Assembly (NCBI RefSeq): GCF_004122035.1
Contig: NZ_SAXA01000005.1
Coordinates: 1 to 64,000 of the forward strand
Length of the DNA: 64,000 nucleotides
Origin: Ancylomarina salipaludis
Lineage (GTDB): Bacteria > Bacteroidota > Bacteroidia > Bacteroidales > Marinifilaceae
Direction: 5' to 3'
Part shown: positions 58,022 through 64,000 of the stretch, in pieces
Layout of the letters: every line of letters starts with the position of its first letter
How positions within the stretch are numbered: position 1 is the stretch's first letter
Made by a program: the position numbers and the translations under genes
The notes under the pieces: generated by a model
The model's input: only the letters and a program-made list of their open reading frames with translations
What the model was told of the DNA's origin: nothing
Databases searched by the model: none

Positions 58022-58058
58022 TGTGTTTTAAAAGATGACTTGTTTTGAAGTGAAAGTC

Positions 58059-58208
58059 CTATTTTGAAAACATTTTTACCAACCACAAGATTAGGTATAG
58101 CCCTATTCCGGCTCCAAAAAATAGCACGGATACAACAAAGGCTATTCTGATCAGTTTCACATCCCAACCCAATTTTCCACTCAGCCATTCGGCAACTCCT
58201 AAAATCAT
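58059..58208 (-). CDS. PspC-domain microprotein
   Basis: 49 residues: opening MILGVAEWLSGKLGWDVKLI, then RIAFVVSVLFFGAGIGLYLI and LWLVKMFSK. It matches the core of the PspC domain, an N-terminal amphipathic GVxxxLxxxxGWD segment followed by one membrane helix (about 22-44) ending YLILWLV. PspC proteins act in envelope-stress sensing; a version of only this domain may modulate another membrane protein. Found by reading the minus strand between ridA and gltA. Confidence 0.8.
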   Translation of the reverse strand: MILGVAEWLSGKLGWDVKLIRIAFVVSVLFFGAGIGLYLILWLVKMFSK

Positions 58209-58527
58209 AATTTTATCTTTTTAGATTTATACATTGATTCAAAAATACGAAATATTTCCTTGTTTATAAGCGAAACAAATGCCCTGAGCTCACGATCAGA
58301 TGGATTAAGATTCCTAAAATTGCTCTGCCTGGATAGTGTCAGAGACTCTTAGCAAAAAATAAGATTCTATTTATTCTTGCTCTATATTACTTGTTAAGTT
58401 GTTAATAATCTATGTCTTGAATTTCTTGATTAGCCGTTTTTTTGTAACTTATAGGGAGTCTTCTTTTCCTTATTAAGTGTGATTTTATACACTGTGTTGC
58501 AGATTTGTGTTTAAACCTAATAATTTG
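58209..58527. other. Intergenic region between the PspC gene and gltA
   Basis: 319 nt, no gene. It must hold the divergent promoters; I see no consensus -33/-7 pair. Confidence 0.4.
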
Positions 58528-59820
58528 ATGGATATGTCTGATCTAAAAAAAGGAATTCAAAATCATATAATTGAATTGCAGTCAGAAATTGACACCATTT
58601 TTGCCAAAGGCCGTGATTCCGTTGTTTCGGAAGTTAACATTGGGCAAATTTATGGTGGAATGCGTGGATTGGTTGCATTGGTTTGTAACACATCCTATGT
58701 TGATCCTTATTCGGGGCTTTATATTGGCGAGTATACCACAGAAACTTTTTCGAATAAGTTACCCGAGGAAATATTTTTTCTTCTGTCTACCGGGAAATTT
58801 CCGGATACGAAATCCCTTGCTGAGTTTCAGAATGAATTGAATGAACGCGCACCAATTCCTGAATATGTTTGGGATGTTTTGCGTGATCTGCCTCAGGATA
58901 CGCACCCAATGACCATGTTGAGCCTCGGTATTTTATCCATGGAAAATGAGTCTGTTTTTAAGAAGGCCTATCAAAAGGGGTTGAAAAAATCGGAATACTG
59001 GCAATACAGCCTGGAGGATGCAATCAATATACTGGCAAAGCTGCCAGGACTTGCAGGGGGAATTTATCGAATACGATTTGGTGATGGGCATTTAATTCCA
59101 CACGATTCCGGTTTGGATTGGTCGGGAAATTTGGCACATATGCTGGGTGTGAGCGATGATGCGGGTTTTGCTGATTTAATACGCCTGTATTTGGTTTTGC
59201 ATTGCGATCATGAAGGCGGGAATGTGAGTGCCTTTACATCGAGAGTGGTGAATTCAGCTCTTTCAGATTTGTATTATGCCGTATCTGCCGGATTGAATGG
59301 TTTGGCCGGTCCCTTGCATGGATTAGCCAATCAGGAATGTTTGCGATTTATTCTGGAAATTCACGAAAAATATGGCGCAGATCCCGATGAAGAGGCGTTG
59401 AGAACGCATATTTTGGACGTGCTGAATTCGGGCAATGTGATTCCGGGTTACGGGCATGCGGTCTTGCGTGTTACCGACCCTCGATTTATTGCTTTTATGA
59501 ATTTTGGTGAAACGAATTGCGAAAGCAGTCCTTGTTTTAAGATTGCAAAGAAACTTTTCTCGGTTGTTCCGGATATTTTAATGCATTATAAGGAAGGTAA
59601 AGTTGCCAATCCTTGGCCCAATGTCGATGCCATGTCGGGTTCACTTCTGCATCATTACGGGGTGAATGAGTTCGATTTTTATACCGTTTTGTTTGGGGTA
59701 TCCCGAGTGATGGGATTTTGTGCTCAGAATATCCTTGCACAGGGATTAGGGCAGCCAATTATCAGACCTAAAAGTGTGACCAATAAATGGGTGCTTGAAA
59801 GACTTAAAGCGAAAGACTAA
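58528..59820 (+). CDS. gltA: Citrate synthase (eukaryotic-like type)
   Basis: 430 residues from the ATG at 58528; another ATG lies 6 nt on. It condenses oxaloacetate and acetyl-CoA at the entry to the TCA cycle. Active-site elements: HCDHEGGNVSAFTSR, AGPLHGLANQECL, PGYGHAVLRVTDPRF (catalytic His) and the last-third Asp segment. The sequence resembles mitochondrial-type synthase rather than E. coli type. The last 107 codons (from 59498) and the following 180 nt are repeated at 61908-62384, so the 3' end of this gene is probably of mosaic origin. Confidence 0.95.
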   Translation: MDMSDLKKGIQNHIIELQSEIDTIFAKGRDSVVSEVNIGQIYGGMRGLVALVCNTSYVDPYSGLYIGEYTTETFSNKLPEEIFFLLSTGKFPDTKSLAEFQNELNERAPIPEYVWDVLRDLPQDTHPMTMLSLGILSMENESVFKKAYQKGLKKSEYWQYSLEDAINILAKLPGLAGGIYRIRFGDGHLIPHDSGLDWSGNLAHMLGVSDDAGFADLIRLYLVLHCDHEGGNVSAFTSRVVNSALSDLYYAVSAGLNGLAGPLHGLANQECLRFILEIHEKYGADPDEEALRTHILDVLNSGNVIPGYGHAVLRVTDPRFIAFMNFGETNCESSPCFKIAKKLFSVVPDILMHYKEGKVANPWPNVDAMSGSLLHHYGVNEFDFYTVLFGVSRVMGFCAQNILAQGLGQPIIRPKSVTNKWVLERLKAKD

Positions 59821-59996
59821 GGGTATTTTACCAGATCAGGATTTAAGCATCAGATCTGTTTGATAGAATTTGGATGAAAAAGAGTCAGTATACTCATCGA
59901 TTCTGATGATACAAATAAAGGCTGCCAAGCGGGGATTGGTAGCCTTTTTTGTTCCTTTAGAGTGACTTGTAGCTTGTGCAACGCTTACTTTTGTTA
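59498..59996 (+). repeat. Direct repeat copy A: gltA 3' end plus terminator
   Basis: It aligns base for base with 61908-62384 at an offset of 2410 through the coding part; small indels occur after the stop codon. The repeat ends in ACTTTTGTTA in both copies. From 59531 to the stop codon I count 13 differences, 12 of them silent. See copy B and findings. Confidence 0.95.
59918..59950 (+). terminator. Rho-independent terminator of gltA
   Basis: AAGGCTGCCAA/TTGGTAGCCTT with a GCGGGGA loop (one G-T pair) and a T-run. Also present in copy B with a perfect stem. Confidence 0.88.
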
Positions 59997-60028
59997 TAGG
60001 TTCGGTTTTTCTCCACTTTCCAAAACAA

Positions 60029-60142
60029 TTACTTTGGATTATTCCAACCAGTTAGAAATTCCCCTAAAGCAAAATCAAGAAAGATGACAATCACAAGTAT
60101 CGATACAATAATTCCAATAATTTTTAATGCTTTTTTATTCAT
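60029..60142 (-). CDS. 37-residue membrane microprotein
   Basis: MNKKALKIIGIIVSILVIVI, then FLDFALGEFLTGWNNPK, read on the minus strand with ATG at 60142 and TAA at 60029. One membrane helix (about 7-24) follows a basic start, with a short polar C-terminus. Its composition and start context look coding but the protein is too short to be certain. No family known to me. Lies just past repeat copy A, at the start of the inserted segment. Confidence 0.5.
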   Translation of the reverse strand: MNKKALKIIGIIVSILVIVIFLDFALGEFLTGWNNPK

Positions 60143-60425
60143 TTTTCGATGTTTATTTAATTGGTAATCTCTCTTTTTAAACTGACCTGTAACGGGAAAC
60201 TGGATGAGTAGTGGCAGATTATTCGCTATCGCTTATGAACTCACTCCGTTCGGTTGCGTGGTAGTTTCCTGTCAAACCGCTACGCGGTTTGAGCGGGCTG
60301 CAAAATCCCAAAACTCATACTGAACCTGCCATTACTTATACAAAGTGATATGCGCTGGTATTCATTTTTTTAATCTATTTTATTATTATCGGAGTCAACC
60401 AAATTCTAAAATTCTGTTATTTAAT
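60143..60425. other. Hairpin-rich intergenic patch in the inserted segment
   Basis: GC-richer than its surroundings. It has a perfect 9-bp palindromic stem TCAAACCGC-TAC-GCGGTTTGA at 60272-60292 and CGCTATCGC-type short repeats near 60225. The right end of the window (63917-63926) has a related TCAAACCGCG piece. It could be a junction or recombination remnant; no gene seen. Confidence 0.45.
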
Positions 60426-61475
60426 CTAAATATCGTATGAAACCCCAATTGAAAAATTGTGAGGAATATCTTGAAATTGTAAAATATGATTTACTTCAAA
60501 ATACAAATCGAAATTATTAGTTACATGATATTCATAACCAAGACTAGGACTTAGTCTAGGTACAATATATAAATCATTTTCAGTGTCATTCCATAATTTT
60601 GCAATATCAAAAAGTCTAAAACCTATGTAAATATTTGATTTTGGCATTTTATAAAAGTCATATAAATAATTAATATTTACGTTAAAGTATTTCTCCCAAG
60701 ACTTGTATATTTCGTCTTCAAATTTTCCATATTCAATACCTAACTTGAATGAATGTCTTGAATTCTTTGAAATAAAAAATTCACCTCCTACTTGAATAAA
60801 CGATATTGCTGAAGTATTGTCAGAGAAATGTGGATCACTTGTATAGTTCGAATATTGGGAGTAAAATTTCCAATCTATTTCTCTTTTTTGAACTTCGGTT
60901 TCTTTATTCTTGAAATAAGAAATCTTACCATTATTATAAGCAATAATTATATTAGAGATATCTTTTTCATTATATCTAATATCATCAACTTTATTAAAGA
61001 GGTAGTTGTTGTCACTTATCAAATATTTTAAAACGCCCTTATATTTATTGTTTTCTTTATTATAAGTTTTGGAGTCAACTTTAACTATCTCAGATCCAGA
61101 ATCTAGTGATCTCATTTGATTGTCTTTAAGAACATATAACTGGATATGATCATTAAACATTGTTTTATAAAGACTTATCTTAATTCCTTCGACAACACTT
61201 TCAAATAATTTTGCCTCTCCGTTATACTGAATGTTTCTAATAATACTTGTTTGCCCTTCAATAAAATCGATGTCTGAAATCTGATAGGTTTGCTTTGCTC
61301 CTATGCTATCTACTACTTTAACAATATCAGGGATTGATGGGTAGAGGTAAAGATCACCATTAACAATGGTGTTATTTTTTAAATGTACTTTTGAATCTTT
61401 TATATACTCCTGAGAAAACAAAGAAGAAAAAGAAATTAACAATAAGAGGGTAGTGGTAAAGGTTTTCATTTTCAT
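60426..61475 (-). CDS. Hypothetical exported protein, barrel-like C-terminus
   Basis: 349 residues from the ATG at 61475 (MKMKTFTTT), which starts a signal peptide (about 1-21, LFSQ). Residues 25-180 are beta-rich and polar, beginning YIKDSKVHLKNNTIVNGDL, with no family I recognise. Residues 190-349 alternate aromatic/polar residues (WKFYSQYSNYTSDPHF, SNIYIGFRLFDIAKLW) and end FSIGVSYDI, with the strand pattern and C-terminal hydrophobic residue of small outer-membrane barrels. DNA is more AT-rich than the core genes. Sits between the two gltA 3' end copies, so it was probably acquired. Confidence 0.65.
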   Translation of the reverse strand: MKMKTFTTTLLLLISFSSLFSQEYIKDSKVHLKNNTIVNGDLYLYPSIPDIVKVVDSIGAKQTYQISDIDFIEGQTSIIRNIQYNGEAKLFESVVEGIKISLYKTMFNDHIQLYVLKDNQMRSLDSGSEIVKVDSKTYNKENNKYKGVLKYLISDNNYLFNKVDDIRYNEKDISNIIIAYNNGKISYFKNKETEVQKREIDWKFYSQYSNYTSDPHFSDNTSAISFIQVGGEFFISKNSRHSFKLGIEYGKFEDEIYKSWEKYFNVNINYLYDFYKMPKSNIYIGFRLFDIAKLWNDTENDLYIVPRLSPSLGYEYHVTNNFDLYFEVNHILQFQDIPHNFSIGVSYDI

Positions 61476-61907
61476 ATTTATTAATAATTGATACACTGCA
61501 AAACTATTCTAAGATTTTATGTGAGATAATTCTAAAATCAAAGGCTGTCTTGTTCTTTTAATATTTATTTGGGATTAATATTTATGTTGTATTTTTAATA
61601 AGGTATTATCATCATTTTTATTTAATAGACAGAAAGATTTTATAGTTAGGCTATATTATCAATAAGTATTTATGTTTTTCGAAACTAAAATAAGAAATTT
61701 TTATTAATATTTTACTTTATATAGGTTAATTATGATTATTTCGATTGTTTATTTTTGAATACCTAAACTTTTGGGAATGTGGCTTATTGAAAGACTTATG
61801 TATCTTATTTTGTTGTGTAATTTACCTTTTTATTGTTTCCATGTTATGTGCTAAATAGAATTGTTGCTGATTAAGCTTGTTTAGGCATTTTTATACAATA
61901 TCAAACG
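61476..61907. other. Very AT-rich intergenic region up to repeat copy B
   Basis: 432 nt, among the most AT-rich parts of the window. No gene seen. It ends abruptly where the gltA homology starts at 61908. Confidence 0.5.
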
Positions 61908-62230
61908 TGAATTTTGGTGAGGTTAATTGCGCAGCTAGTCCTTGTTTTAAGATTGCAAAGAAACTCTTCTCAGTTGTTCCGGATATTTTAATGCATTATA
62001 AGGAAGGTAAAGTGGCCAACCCATGGCCCAATGTTGACGCCATGTCGGGTTCACTTCTGCATCATTACGGGGTGAATGAATTCGATTTTTATACCGTTTT
62101 GTTTGGGGTGTCCCGAGTGATGGGATTTTGTGCTCAGAATATCCTTGCACAGGGACTAGGGCAGCCAATTATCAGACCTAAAAGTGTAACCAATAAATGG
62201 GTGCTTGAAAGACTTAAGGCGAAAGGCTAA
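61908..62230 (+). pseudogene. Headless citrate synthase fragment
   Basis: 106 residues equal to the C-terminal quarter of the gltA product with four changes (T to V, E to A, S to A near the left edge and last residue D to G). No initiation region or N-terminal three-quarters, so it cannot work as a citrate synthase. The reading frame is intact to the stop, pointing to recent displacement rather than long decay. An in-frame TTG at 61877 could start a 117-residue product but nothing supports translation. Confidence 0.9.
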
Positions 62231-62302
62231 GGGTATTTTACCCAATCAGGATTTAAGCATTCAGATGTGTTTTTATAATAATCTGATTTTGATGATATGA
62301 AT

Positions 62303-62336
62303 AAAGGCTACCAAGCGGGGATTGGTAGCCTTTTTT
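62303..62336 (+). terminator. Terminator copy in repeat B
   Basis: AAAGGCTACCAA/TTGGTAGCCTTT perfect stem and T-run; counterpart of the gltA terminator. Here the stem base change G to A restores a full Watson-Crick pair. Confidence 0.88.
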
Positions 62337-62379
62337 GTTCCTCTAGAGCGAGCTTGTAGCTTGTGCAACGATTACTTTT

Positions 62380-62388
62380 GTTAGCAAC
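62380..62388 (+). repeat. Inverted repeat GTTAGCAAC, left of KAP gene
   Basis: GTTAGCAAC here and GTTGCTAAC at 63865-63873 form a 9-bp inverted pair that closely brackets the KAP NTPase gene. The left unit abuts the right edge of repeat copy B. It may be chance at this length. Confidence 0.4.
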
Positions 62389-62428
62389 TGGGCTTTATTC
62401 TAGCAATCCTATTTATATTTCTTATCTA

Positions 62429-63823
62429 TTACTTAATTGTTTCAATTAGATCAATTTTTTCTGTCAAATGCTTTATGCTCAATTCAGATGAATTACTACT
62501 GAATTGACTTAAAGATTGAAACATATCAAGAAGTGTTTGGTTATTAATTGAAGTATCGATTTTCGATTTTATAATCAGTTTATTTTCAGCGACTATAGTT
62601 TCTTTGTTATTATAATCTCTTGAATTGTTATAGGAGTTAATAAGAATAGCTTCAGTATAGATGAAAGTCCTCAAATCACCATTTTCTAATCCTTTAGGAA
62701 TTATATTTTCAATTTGATCTATTAATTCTTGAAGTGAATAGAAACCTCCTTTAATATTATCATAGACGGACTGATGAGAGATTTTTAAATAGATAAGAAA
62801 TATAAAGAGGCTAGGAATAAGATAATCATTGCTATAAAAAGAACGTAAGGCTAAACGAGCGTGTGCAAATATTTTTTCTTGTAACCTTAATGGAAGTCTC
62901 TCATAATTAAATAAAGCTGTTGAAAATTCAATAAGTTTATTACTATCACCTTTAAGTTCAGAATACTTTATCCTTTCATCTGAACTTATAAAATCACTAA
63001 ACTTAAAGTAGTCATATAAATGTTTACAAAAAAGTTTTGTACTGGGTTCAGGTATAGCATATTCAATATCAATAAATCTTCTCAAATATTCGTCTGCATT
63101 TATATTATCGCTTCCATATACACCTCGTACTGCATGACCTAATTGAACCTTATCAATTGAAAGAACAAAAATAATACCTGGTACCGAGAAAAGATGCTTG
63201 ATTTGTTCTAGAACTTCAACAGCATAGTTAGGTCGGCAGCGGTCAAGTTCATCTATAATGAAAATTACTGGTAAATTATCGTCTGTTAATTTCACAAACT
63301 TTTCAAGGCTTTTCTTAAATTCATCAATACTATTTTTACGACTCGCGTATGATTGTATTCGTTCTTCCAAACCTTTAGCCAATGCTTCTGAAGTCAGGTT
63401 TAATGGACCATTGACGAAATTATCACCAACATATTTTTTTATTTGAGTTTTGAGTAAACCAAGAGCTAAACCTTTTACTAGGGGAGCTGCATTTTGGACT
63501 ACATTTTTAAAAACCTTTTCAGTTGTTGTCCCTTTTAGTGCTTCTAACTCTGACATTAATGAAACAAGAACATCATCTTCAAAATCGTTCTCCCAAGCAT
63601 TAAAATAAAGTGTCTTATACTTTTGATTCTTTAAATGCTGTTCCCACATTTTTATAAATGTAGACTTGCCTGTTCCCCATTCATTGTTTATGGCCAATAC
63701 AAAACCATCTGCATAGCTGTTTACAATTTCTGTAAGCACTAATGCATAAGGTTCTCGTTCTAATTTACAATTGGTAAAAGGATTAATTTTATCAATAACT
63801 ATTTCTTCATTCTTTAATTTCAT
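62429..63823 (-). CDS. KAP-family P-loop NTPase (possible phage-defence protein)
   Basis: 464 residues. Walker A is NNEWGTGKST (46-55). The family marker FNAWEND lies at 74-80. Walker B with the KAP signature, PVIFIIDELDRC, is at 185-196. Hydrophobic stretches near 112-125 and 330-345 fit the membrane-linked segments of KAP proteins. C-terminal 130 residues are helical without a family. The KAP family includes PifA, the F-plasmid protein that excludes phage T7, and occurs often in defence loci. It lies alone in AT-rich DNA next to the gltA duplication, supporting acquisition by transfer. The actual function is unproven. Confidence 0.88.
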   Translation of the reverse strand: MKLKNEEIVIDKINPFTNCKLEREPYALVLTEIVNSYADGFVLAINNEWGTGKSTFIKMWEQHLKNQKYKTLYFNAWENDFEDDVLVSLMSELEALKGTTTEKVFKNVVQNAAPLVKGLALGLLKTQIKKYVGDNFVNGPLNLTSEALAKGLEERIQSYASRKNSIDEFKKSLEKFVKLTDDNLPVIFIIDELDRCRPNYAVEVLEQIKHLFSVPGIIFVLSIDKVQLGHAVRGVYGSDNINADEYLRRFIDIEYAIPEPSTKLFCKHLYDYFKFSDFISSDERIKYSELKGDSNKLIEFSTALFNYERLPLRLQEKIFAHARLALRSFYSNDYLIPSLFIFLIYLKISHQSVYDNIKGGFYSLQELIDQIENIIPKGLENGDLRTFIYTEAILINSYNNSRDYNNKETIVAENKLIIKSKIDTSINNQTLLDMFQSLSQFSSNSSELSIKHLTEKIDLIETIK

Positions 63824-63864
63824 TAGACTAGTATTTCATTCTATATGGCTAGTTTATTTGCCTT

Positions 63865-63873
63865 GTTGCTAAC
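63865..63873 (-). repeat. Inverted repeat GTTGCTAAC, right of KAP gene
   Basis: Partner of 62380-62388 in inverted orientation, 42 nt upstream of the KAP start codon. Confidence 0.4.
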
Positions 63874-63957
63874 GGTCTTGCTAAGTTTTGTGGGCGATTA
63901 AAACAGTTGCCTTATCAAACCGCGCGGAAGCAAGCCGCTTAAATTTGCTTATATTTT

Positions 63958-63986
63958 CCAGCAATCCAATTTTAATGGCTTGCTGG
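63958..63986. other. Imperfect hairpin at the window edge
   Basis: CCAGCAA pairs with TTGCTGG, with inner CCA/TGG across a one-base mismatch. Followed by TGTTTGTTAATTG. It resembles neither a T-tailed terminator nor a known attachment site; it could mark the far edge of the accessory block, which continues past the window. Confidence 0.4.
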
Positions 63987-64000
63987 TGTTTGTTAATTGT

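Follow-up and report, generated by a model that had tools for sequence, protein, structure and literature searches.

Introduction

Islands lodged in the 3' ends of genes leave a second 3' end beyond the inserted DNA. Displacement of rhs C-terminal ends has reportedly been attributed, as a proposal, to homology-facilitated illegitimate recombination. The same mechanism is offered, again as a proposal, for displaced gene ends of type VI secretion system (T6SS) effectors (PMC5361080), and clusters of attC sites lacking integron-integrases are termed CALIN (PMC9024848). Here we set beside these systems a locus of Ancylomarina salipaludis (contig NZ_SAXA01000005.1) at which the 3' end of gltA, a citrate synthase gene, is present twice, as copies A and B. 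The window is the whole stretch of 64,000 nucleotides that was analyzed. We observed directly the duplicate, its mostly silent divergence, a leader-like sequence beside copy B, a block discordant with its flanks, and relatives with a single gltA end. We consider it probable that two alleles of one exchangeable locus are carried here in tandem, joined without homology, and that the orphan gltA end is the scar of that event.

The genome of the window is called G000 and the four other genomes of the genus G001-G004; the gltA locus was read in G000, G001, G003 and G004. Coordinates without a prefix are window positions, C45 is the G000 contig with the gltA locus, and a third copy of the end (copy C) lies beyond the window.

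The Two gltA 3' Ends

In G000, G001 and G004 the layout is gltA, mostly minus-strand genes, a stretch that we call the leader, and then a conserved gene for a 235-aa protein. The leader is what lies between the array of minus-strand genes and the 235-aa gene; leader-1 is the G000 copy beside the latter. The features that carry the argument are these.

58525..59820, plus strand: gltA-A, complete citrate synthase gene (Pfam Citrate_synt, 8.4e-90; NCBIfam PRK09569 above cut-off)
59498..59996, plus strand: copy A, the live 3' end with trailer, terminator, REP-like stretch and 24-nt tail (by alignment)
61497..61907, no strand: leader-A, a diverged, truncated leader copy (BLAST homology over 61579-61857, remainder by alignment only)
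61907..61908, no strand: leader-A meets gltA-B here, at codon 325/326; no extended homology seen
61908..62384, plus strand: copy B, orphan 3' end of what we read as the other gltA allele, with trailer, terminator and the tail also found on copy A (by alignment)

An earlier note on this DNA, made from sequence alone, had placed homologous gltA ends here, and alignment bears this out: the full 499-base query, 59498-59996, aligns with 61908-62383 at 87% identity, ungapped and at 94% across the first 300 nt. Homology continues via trailer, terminator and tail to about 59998/62384, past which the two copies each abut the end box of a different cassette. The duplication of the gltA 3' end is thus confirmed as real and informative.

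Copy B is truncated at its 5' side and shares with copy A the codons from 326 to the end. This shared coding part, 318 bases long, has 21 base differences, which fall in 17 codons; 13 of the codon differences are synonymous and four replacing (codons 330, 333, 334 and 431), or, counted by bases, 13 are silent and eight lie within replacing codons. Codons 330, 333 and 334 form a cluster at the left edge, where the note had seen three amino-acid changes, in a stretch that is also variable among species. From codon 335 onward 12 of the 13 differing codons are synonymous, and the note's count from 59531 (13 differences, 12 silent) is exact. Neither a stop nor a frameshift was found in the reading frame of copy B.

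The Leader-Like Sequence and the Joint

The 411 bases immediately left of copy B seem empty at first sight, yet they are collinear with the leaders of G000, G001, G003 and G004 (BLAST E 5e-17 to 8e-12, compared with 6e-8 for the best of 100 block-of-two shuffles). When the family genomes were searched with the insert, 61668-61818 matched only the leaders of G004, G001 and G003 in those genomes (five candidates scored per genome); leader-1 of G000 was not among the matches listed in that search. This stretch, leader-A, therefore looks like a leader-like piece of the same locus and not like cargo. Its presence left of B points to the tandem order gltA-A, array, leader-A, and directly joined to this the gltA-B end, array, leader-1, 235-aa gene. 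At the joint, 61907/61908, we found no extended stretch shared by leader-A and gltA-B. No recombinase gene was found between copies A and B in open reading frame (ORF) translations or with Pfam, in keeping with the note, which had seen no integrase.

Divergence of Copies A and B

Silent and replacing codon differences between A and B stand at 13:4. Seven orthologue pairs over the same end give 20:8 (A-G004), 15:8 (B-G004), 25:6 (A-G001), 28:6 (B-G001), 21:9 (G004-G001), 21:11 (A-L061) and 27:10 (B-L061), and none of these differs from A-B (Fisher 0.5 to 1.0); L061 is the locus of a Labilibaculum-like genome. Wholly neutral change, for which 25% silent differences are expected, is far from the A-B ratio (p 1e-5 by codons, 3e-4 by bases). 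When changes are polarized by the state in which G004 equals G001, three of three on B and three of three on A are silent. Identity is 93.4% in the coding part and 85.3% in the trailer, which is the more diverged of the two.

A tree of the shared end makes A and B sisters (support 84/89) with equal end branches of 0.035 each. The grouping of A with G004 is rejected (p-AU 0.036), and informative sites number seven for A+B, three for B+G004 and one for A+G004. Because the divergence is silent-biased, the branches are equal, and the trailer is more diverged while the frame stays open, we take copy B to have belonged to a functional gene during much of the period after its separation from A. The note's claim that B was recently the end of a working gltA draws support from the synonymous bias, less firmly so when neutral change is supposed for B only (p 0.10 or 0.03, given in full below). 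The note had also held that sister copies with neutral divergence would speak against an incoming end; the sister grouping was found, and the differences are synonymous-biased.

gltA Ends in Relatives

No second gltA end was found in 55 other genomes of the family (at most 11 candidates scored per genome), nor in the same 55 by a protein search with E up to 1e-20 and all candidates scored; that protein search also misses copy C, and short scars would escape it. The four other genomes of the genus likewise gave no second end with 24-40 candidates scored in each, and in a second collection of 59 loci with flanks of up to 10 kb a gltA end was present in 56 and never twice. One apparent second piece (L039, G037:C447) was rejected as a scar: both pieces lie at contig ends and reflect an assembly break. 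G001 and G004 have one gltA end each and other cargo; the note had proposed looking for relatives with a single end and for others with different payloads. The arrangement, far from being shared by all close relatives, is absent from them.

The note regarded gltA as a core gene, which does not hold. This gltA is a second citrate synthase, 46% identical to the other one at C45:236217-237443, and is missing from two of the five genus species searched (G002 and G003); in G003 other genes occupy its place. All 16 family genomes with this gltA (16/16) also have another citrate synthase at 45-48%, and eight others have only the latter. At L061 gltA is followed, by reading, by a putative gene presumably of the ABC-F kind, without an array.

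Exchange of the gltA-Leader Block

Identity between G000 and G004 is 92.6-93.7% in the left flank and reaches 97.6% for the 235-aa gene, of whose 708 bases 632 were compared, in contrast to 84.7-90.5% in gltA and 76.7% in leader-1. Between G000 and G001 it is 81.6% and 84.7% in two flank genes and 82.5% in the 235-aa gene, and a gene further left of the locus shows the same sister pattern (85% to G004, 72% to G001). Within gltA the three genomes are about equally distant from each other; by segment, G004 and G001 are closer than G000 and G004 in three of four, and equal in the fourth. The drop in G000-G004 identity starts near 58262 and recovers just before the 235-aa gene. Because the flanks pair G000 with G004 as sisters and gltA and the leader do not, we conclude that at least one of the G000, G001 and G004 lineages has had its gltA-leader block replaced. 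Such a replacement fits an event that joined two alleles.

A Proposed Course of Events

The exchangeable locus would comprise gltA on the plus strand, a minus-strand cassette array, the leader and the conserved 235-aa gene. An incoming and a resident allele, either of which could be A or B, would have recombined so that leader-A was joined to codon 325/326 of gltA-B, leaving one complete gltA, the truncated end of the other allele as a scar, and both cargos. Homology-facilitated illegitimate recombination, with a homologous anchor on one side and an illegitimate joint on the other, seems the likeliest mechanism, and the DNA would have been transferred from another strain. The orphan end B keeps its own cargo downstream, namely the KAP gene and further cassettes. 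Copy B is slightly closer to G004 than A is (91.5 vs. 90.5%), which does not decide the latest arrival, because G004's own gltA may have been replaced. The note's proposal that incoming DNA brought its own gltA end and pushed the other downstream was right in kind, apart from the insertion element it invoked; and cargo does lie between the copies, as it said, except that payload is found on both sides of B and the interval includes the leader-like piece.

Several observations weigh against two joined alleles. Under a stricter null, in which B has been neutral since the split and A constrained, p is 0.10 with half of the change on B and 0.03 with 65% of it there, so the silent excess is weak; codons 330 and 334, moreover, hold several replacing differences that are unpolarized. 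A grouping of B with G004 is not rejected (p-AU 0.142). The global identity of leader-A to other leaders is 54.5-57.1%, vs. 70-73% among those, and its BLAST homology does not reach the joint, ending some 50 bases away; the donor would thus be more distant than that of gltA-A, or leader-A has decayed. The flank stretch 58040-58230 is nearly as similar in G001 (91.2%) as in G004 (92.6%). No homologous anchor or crossover was located, and the G000-G004 drop left of gltA crosses about 90 unaligned bases. Finally, the tail joint is the same in both alleles but the cassettes that adjoin it differ, and a mere joining of alleles leaves this unaccounted for; recombination may have taken place at the cassette end box itself.

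The Cassette Array and Its Cargo

Five cassettes were read at the gltA locus, all on the minus strand. The features of the array within the window are as follows.

59993..60193, minus strand: orf37 cassette, start box GTTACAGGT, end box ACCTATAAC (boxes match 8/9)
60193..60357, minus strand: attC-like site between P1 and orf37, with a degenerate end box (by reading)
60426..61496, minus strand: P1, 356 aa, its start resembling a secretion signal; without a match in Pfam, NCBIfam or PADLOC
62380..63872, minus strand: KAP cassette, start box GTTAGCAAC, end box GTTGCTAAC (perfect complements, 9/9)
62429..63823, minus strand: KAP-family P-loop NTPase (Pfam 5.3e-41; PADLOC PDC-S20 4.1e-164, residues 1-463 of 464)
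63873..64000, on to about C45:64055, minus strand: attC-like site belonging to the following cassette, among the 18 sites aligned

The attC box grammar applied to these arrays is the one we take to be usual. Among 18 attC-like repeats of 179-184 nt from six loci, Y precedes AAC and R follows GTT in 18/18; the boxes were located by AAC and GTT, which leaves only Y and R free, and five short BLAST rows of 23 were left out. Pairing of the arms beats 95% of 200 shuffles, again in 18/18. Stretches of the attC-like site at 60193..60357 (query 173-388) are listed in at least 21 of 56 family genomes, G000 included. The same family is also seen at L194 (G001:C35; six aligned sites), L195 (G000:C18; four) and L142 (G000:C4; two), and G025 has at least five copies within 3104620-3116801; larger arrays probably exist.

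A tyrosine recombinase gene on G000 contig C20 adjoins an array of the same attC-like family. It lies at L140 6329-7417 and encodes 362 aa, and the array there has four aligned 182-nt attC-like sites; a second gene, at L141 (G004:C4) 122-1246, encodes 374 aa. Against TIGR02249 (integron integrase, cut-off 265 bits) the best scores are 202.5 in G000 and 211.2 in G004, and none of the five genus genomes (0/5) exceeds the cut-off. Against NF040815 (cut-off 220) they are 218.6 and 218.2, just below it. The enzyme beside the array at L140 is a candidate cassette recombinase of a non-IntI kind. A scan of the longer ORFs between gltA and the 235-aa gene (the 37-aa ORF aside) found no recombinase; by reading, no attI was seen beside the gltA array; and the 235-aa protein has no similarity to the 309-aa protein adjoining the recombinase gene. 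Judged by its sequence, we would say that the array has an integron-like grammar and may work like that of an integron. Since the recombinases fall below the integron-integrase cut-off, we do not class it as an integron. No paper naming both an integron and Marinifilaceae was found in the literature searched. A short repeat array is seen near the recombinase locus (L140 8920-9150).

The orf37 cassette is named for a 37-aa ORF at about 60029-60142 (by reading). Units like it occur at 86-89% in G028, G050 and G040, the start border being common with G050, and support a mobile unit. We dropped the idea that they share one identical attC, as the borders of the three are only partly common with those in the window.

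The 24-nt tail (window 59974-59999 and 62361-62384; L005-L008, L119-L138) lies after cassette end boxes, and several G000 copies share about 195-215 nt. At L123 and L132 the 24 nt are followed, by reading, by an inverted second arm and then by an attC start flanked by ACAAAAG, and L134 and L138 have a diverged version of this arrangement (by reading). The inverted-arm copies at L123 and L132 led us to drop in part the idea that the tail is half of an attC; it is perhaps an element inserted in, or targeting, attC.

The cargo in G000 comprises orf37, P1, the KAP NTPase, a 219-aa protein, and a two-gene unit with a PD-T7-4 homolog just beyond the window (L020 9271-9897; PADLOC 1.5e-83). PDC-S20, which the KAP protein matches, is an anti-phage candidate. 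G004 has, among other cargo, gajA/gajB at L027 2576-6675, matching Gabija GajA and GajB (4e-281 and 2e-249), and a plus-strand gene with a 2OG-Fe(II) oxygenase domain first after gltA. The two cargo genes of G001 have no Pfam or PADLOC match. Some cargo genes are thus like phage-defence genes. An Rfam search of L020 with E up to 0.1 gave no match. Imperfect tandem repeats of about 21 nt (GGCGGAA...) lie between leader and 235-aa gene (L020 10420-10640, L026 10930-11180; by reading).

Copy C

Copy C, at G000:C45:67720-67926, is shorter than A and B. Its identity to A is 94% across the final 66 coding bases together with trailer and terminator, and its trailer is A-like (91.5% to A, 79.3% to B). 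Its left edge reads as the right end of a deleted insertion sequence (IS) element, which we take to be of IS3 type; a longer copy with matching ends lies on contig C17. By reading, the element's left and right ends are fused at L020 11670-11720, left of copy C, with the middle gone. In the roughly 5 kb right of C, only stretches in the last 570 bases or so were matched in the genus (up to 40 candidates scored per genome). We read copy C as a separate scar beside IS-element remains.

Alternative Explanations

A tandem duplication of the locus within this lineage, with one copy later decaying, would account for A and B as sisters at 84/89 and for the tail on both, and the p of 0.10 for neutrality of B alone and the rank of leader-A as the most diverged leader also suit it. 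We regard it as unlikely all the same: the cargo after each copy differs, divergence is silent-biased and branch lengths are equal, and gltA and leader are discordant with the flanks block-wise.

About as doubtful is that a cassette recombinase moved the gltA 3' end, fused to a broken attC, into a secondary GTT-like site before P1. Both copies end at a cassette end box, the KAP (9/9) and orf37 (8/9) boxes match, and a tyrosine recombinase gene stands beside another G000 array; the left joint of B, however, tells against such a move, since the nearest GTT (minus strand) lies two bases beyond the point where the gltA homology stops, the gltA of relatives is without a G at that position, and the neighboring sequence resembles a leader, not a cassette.

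The note likened the arrangement to elements that insert into a core gene's 3' end and restore it; the integrase would here have been lost. A restored gene end on one side and a displaced one on the other are what such an element would leave. We nevertheless think it very improbable, as there is no recombinase gene between the copies, the repeat spans about 480-500 bases at 87% with no short identical core, the interval holds leader-like sequence, and no such element was present at gltA in the relatives read.

An assembly artefact from a mixed culture is the least credible of all: the draft comprises 55 contigs and its contamination is estimated at 1.84%, but the joint 61907/61908 has no shared stretch to mislead an assembler, A and B are only 87% identical, and the contig measures 248 kb.

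Two alleles in tandem thus remain our preferred reading. A broader conjecture, to which we give little credence, is that Marinifilaceae have an integron-like system run by a non-IntI tyrosine recombinase, and that at one array of this system the gltA end has become part of the attachment site; gene ends, cassettes and leaders would then be reshuffled together, allele by allele, and the accumulating scars would document a series of exchanges of phage-defence cargo.

Comparison With Known Systems

Orphan gene ends make past exchanges at a variable locus readable from a single genome. The case suggests that a metabolic gene, and not only a toxin locus, can bear displacement scars, and it points towards a cassette system of integron-like type in marine Bacteroidota, one with a recombinase that is not a recognized IntI. 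If this holds widely, such exchange loci could be found by looking for spare 3' ends next to arrays.

Unlike islands in gene 3' ends, the locus has no integrase and no short att core, and its displaced end is another allele. With integrons and CALIN (PMC9024848) it has in common cassettes of the same orientation, YAAC and GTTR boxes, pairing arms and variable cargo; it differs from integrons in that no integrase lies at the gltA array, the best recombinases of the genus fall below the cut-off, and the sites belong to one 182-nt family. The closest parallel is T6SS displacement (PMC5361080), in which a conserved part of a gene region anchors incoming DNA, older parts are pushed downstream together with the cargo they carry, and homology-facilitated illegitimate recombination is the proposed origin of the far joint. 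In contrast to that system, a metabolic gene and not an effector gene would be the anchor here, most differences in the orphan end are silent, the cargo consists of a cassette array that includes defence-like genes, and, to judge from the leader-like sequence at the joint, whole alleles seem to have been fused.

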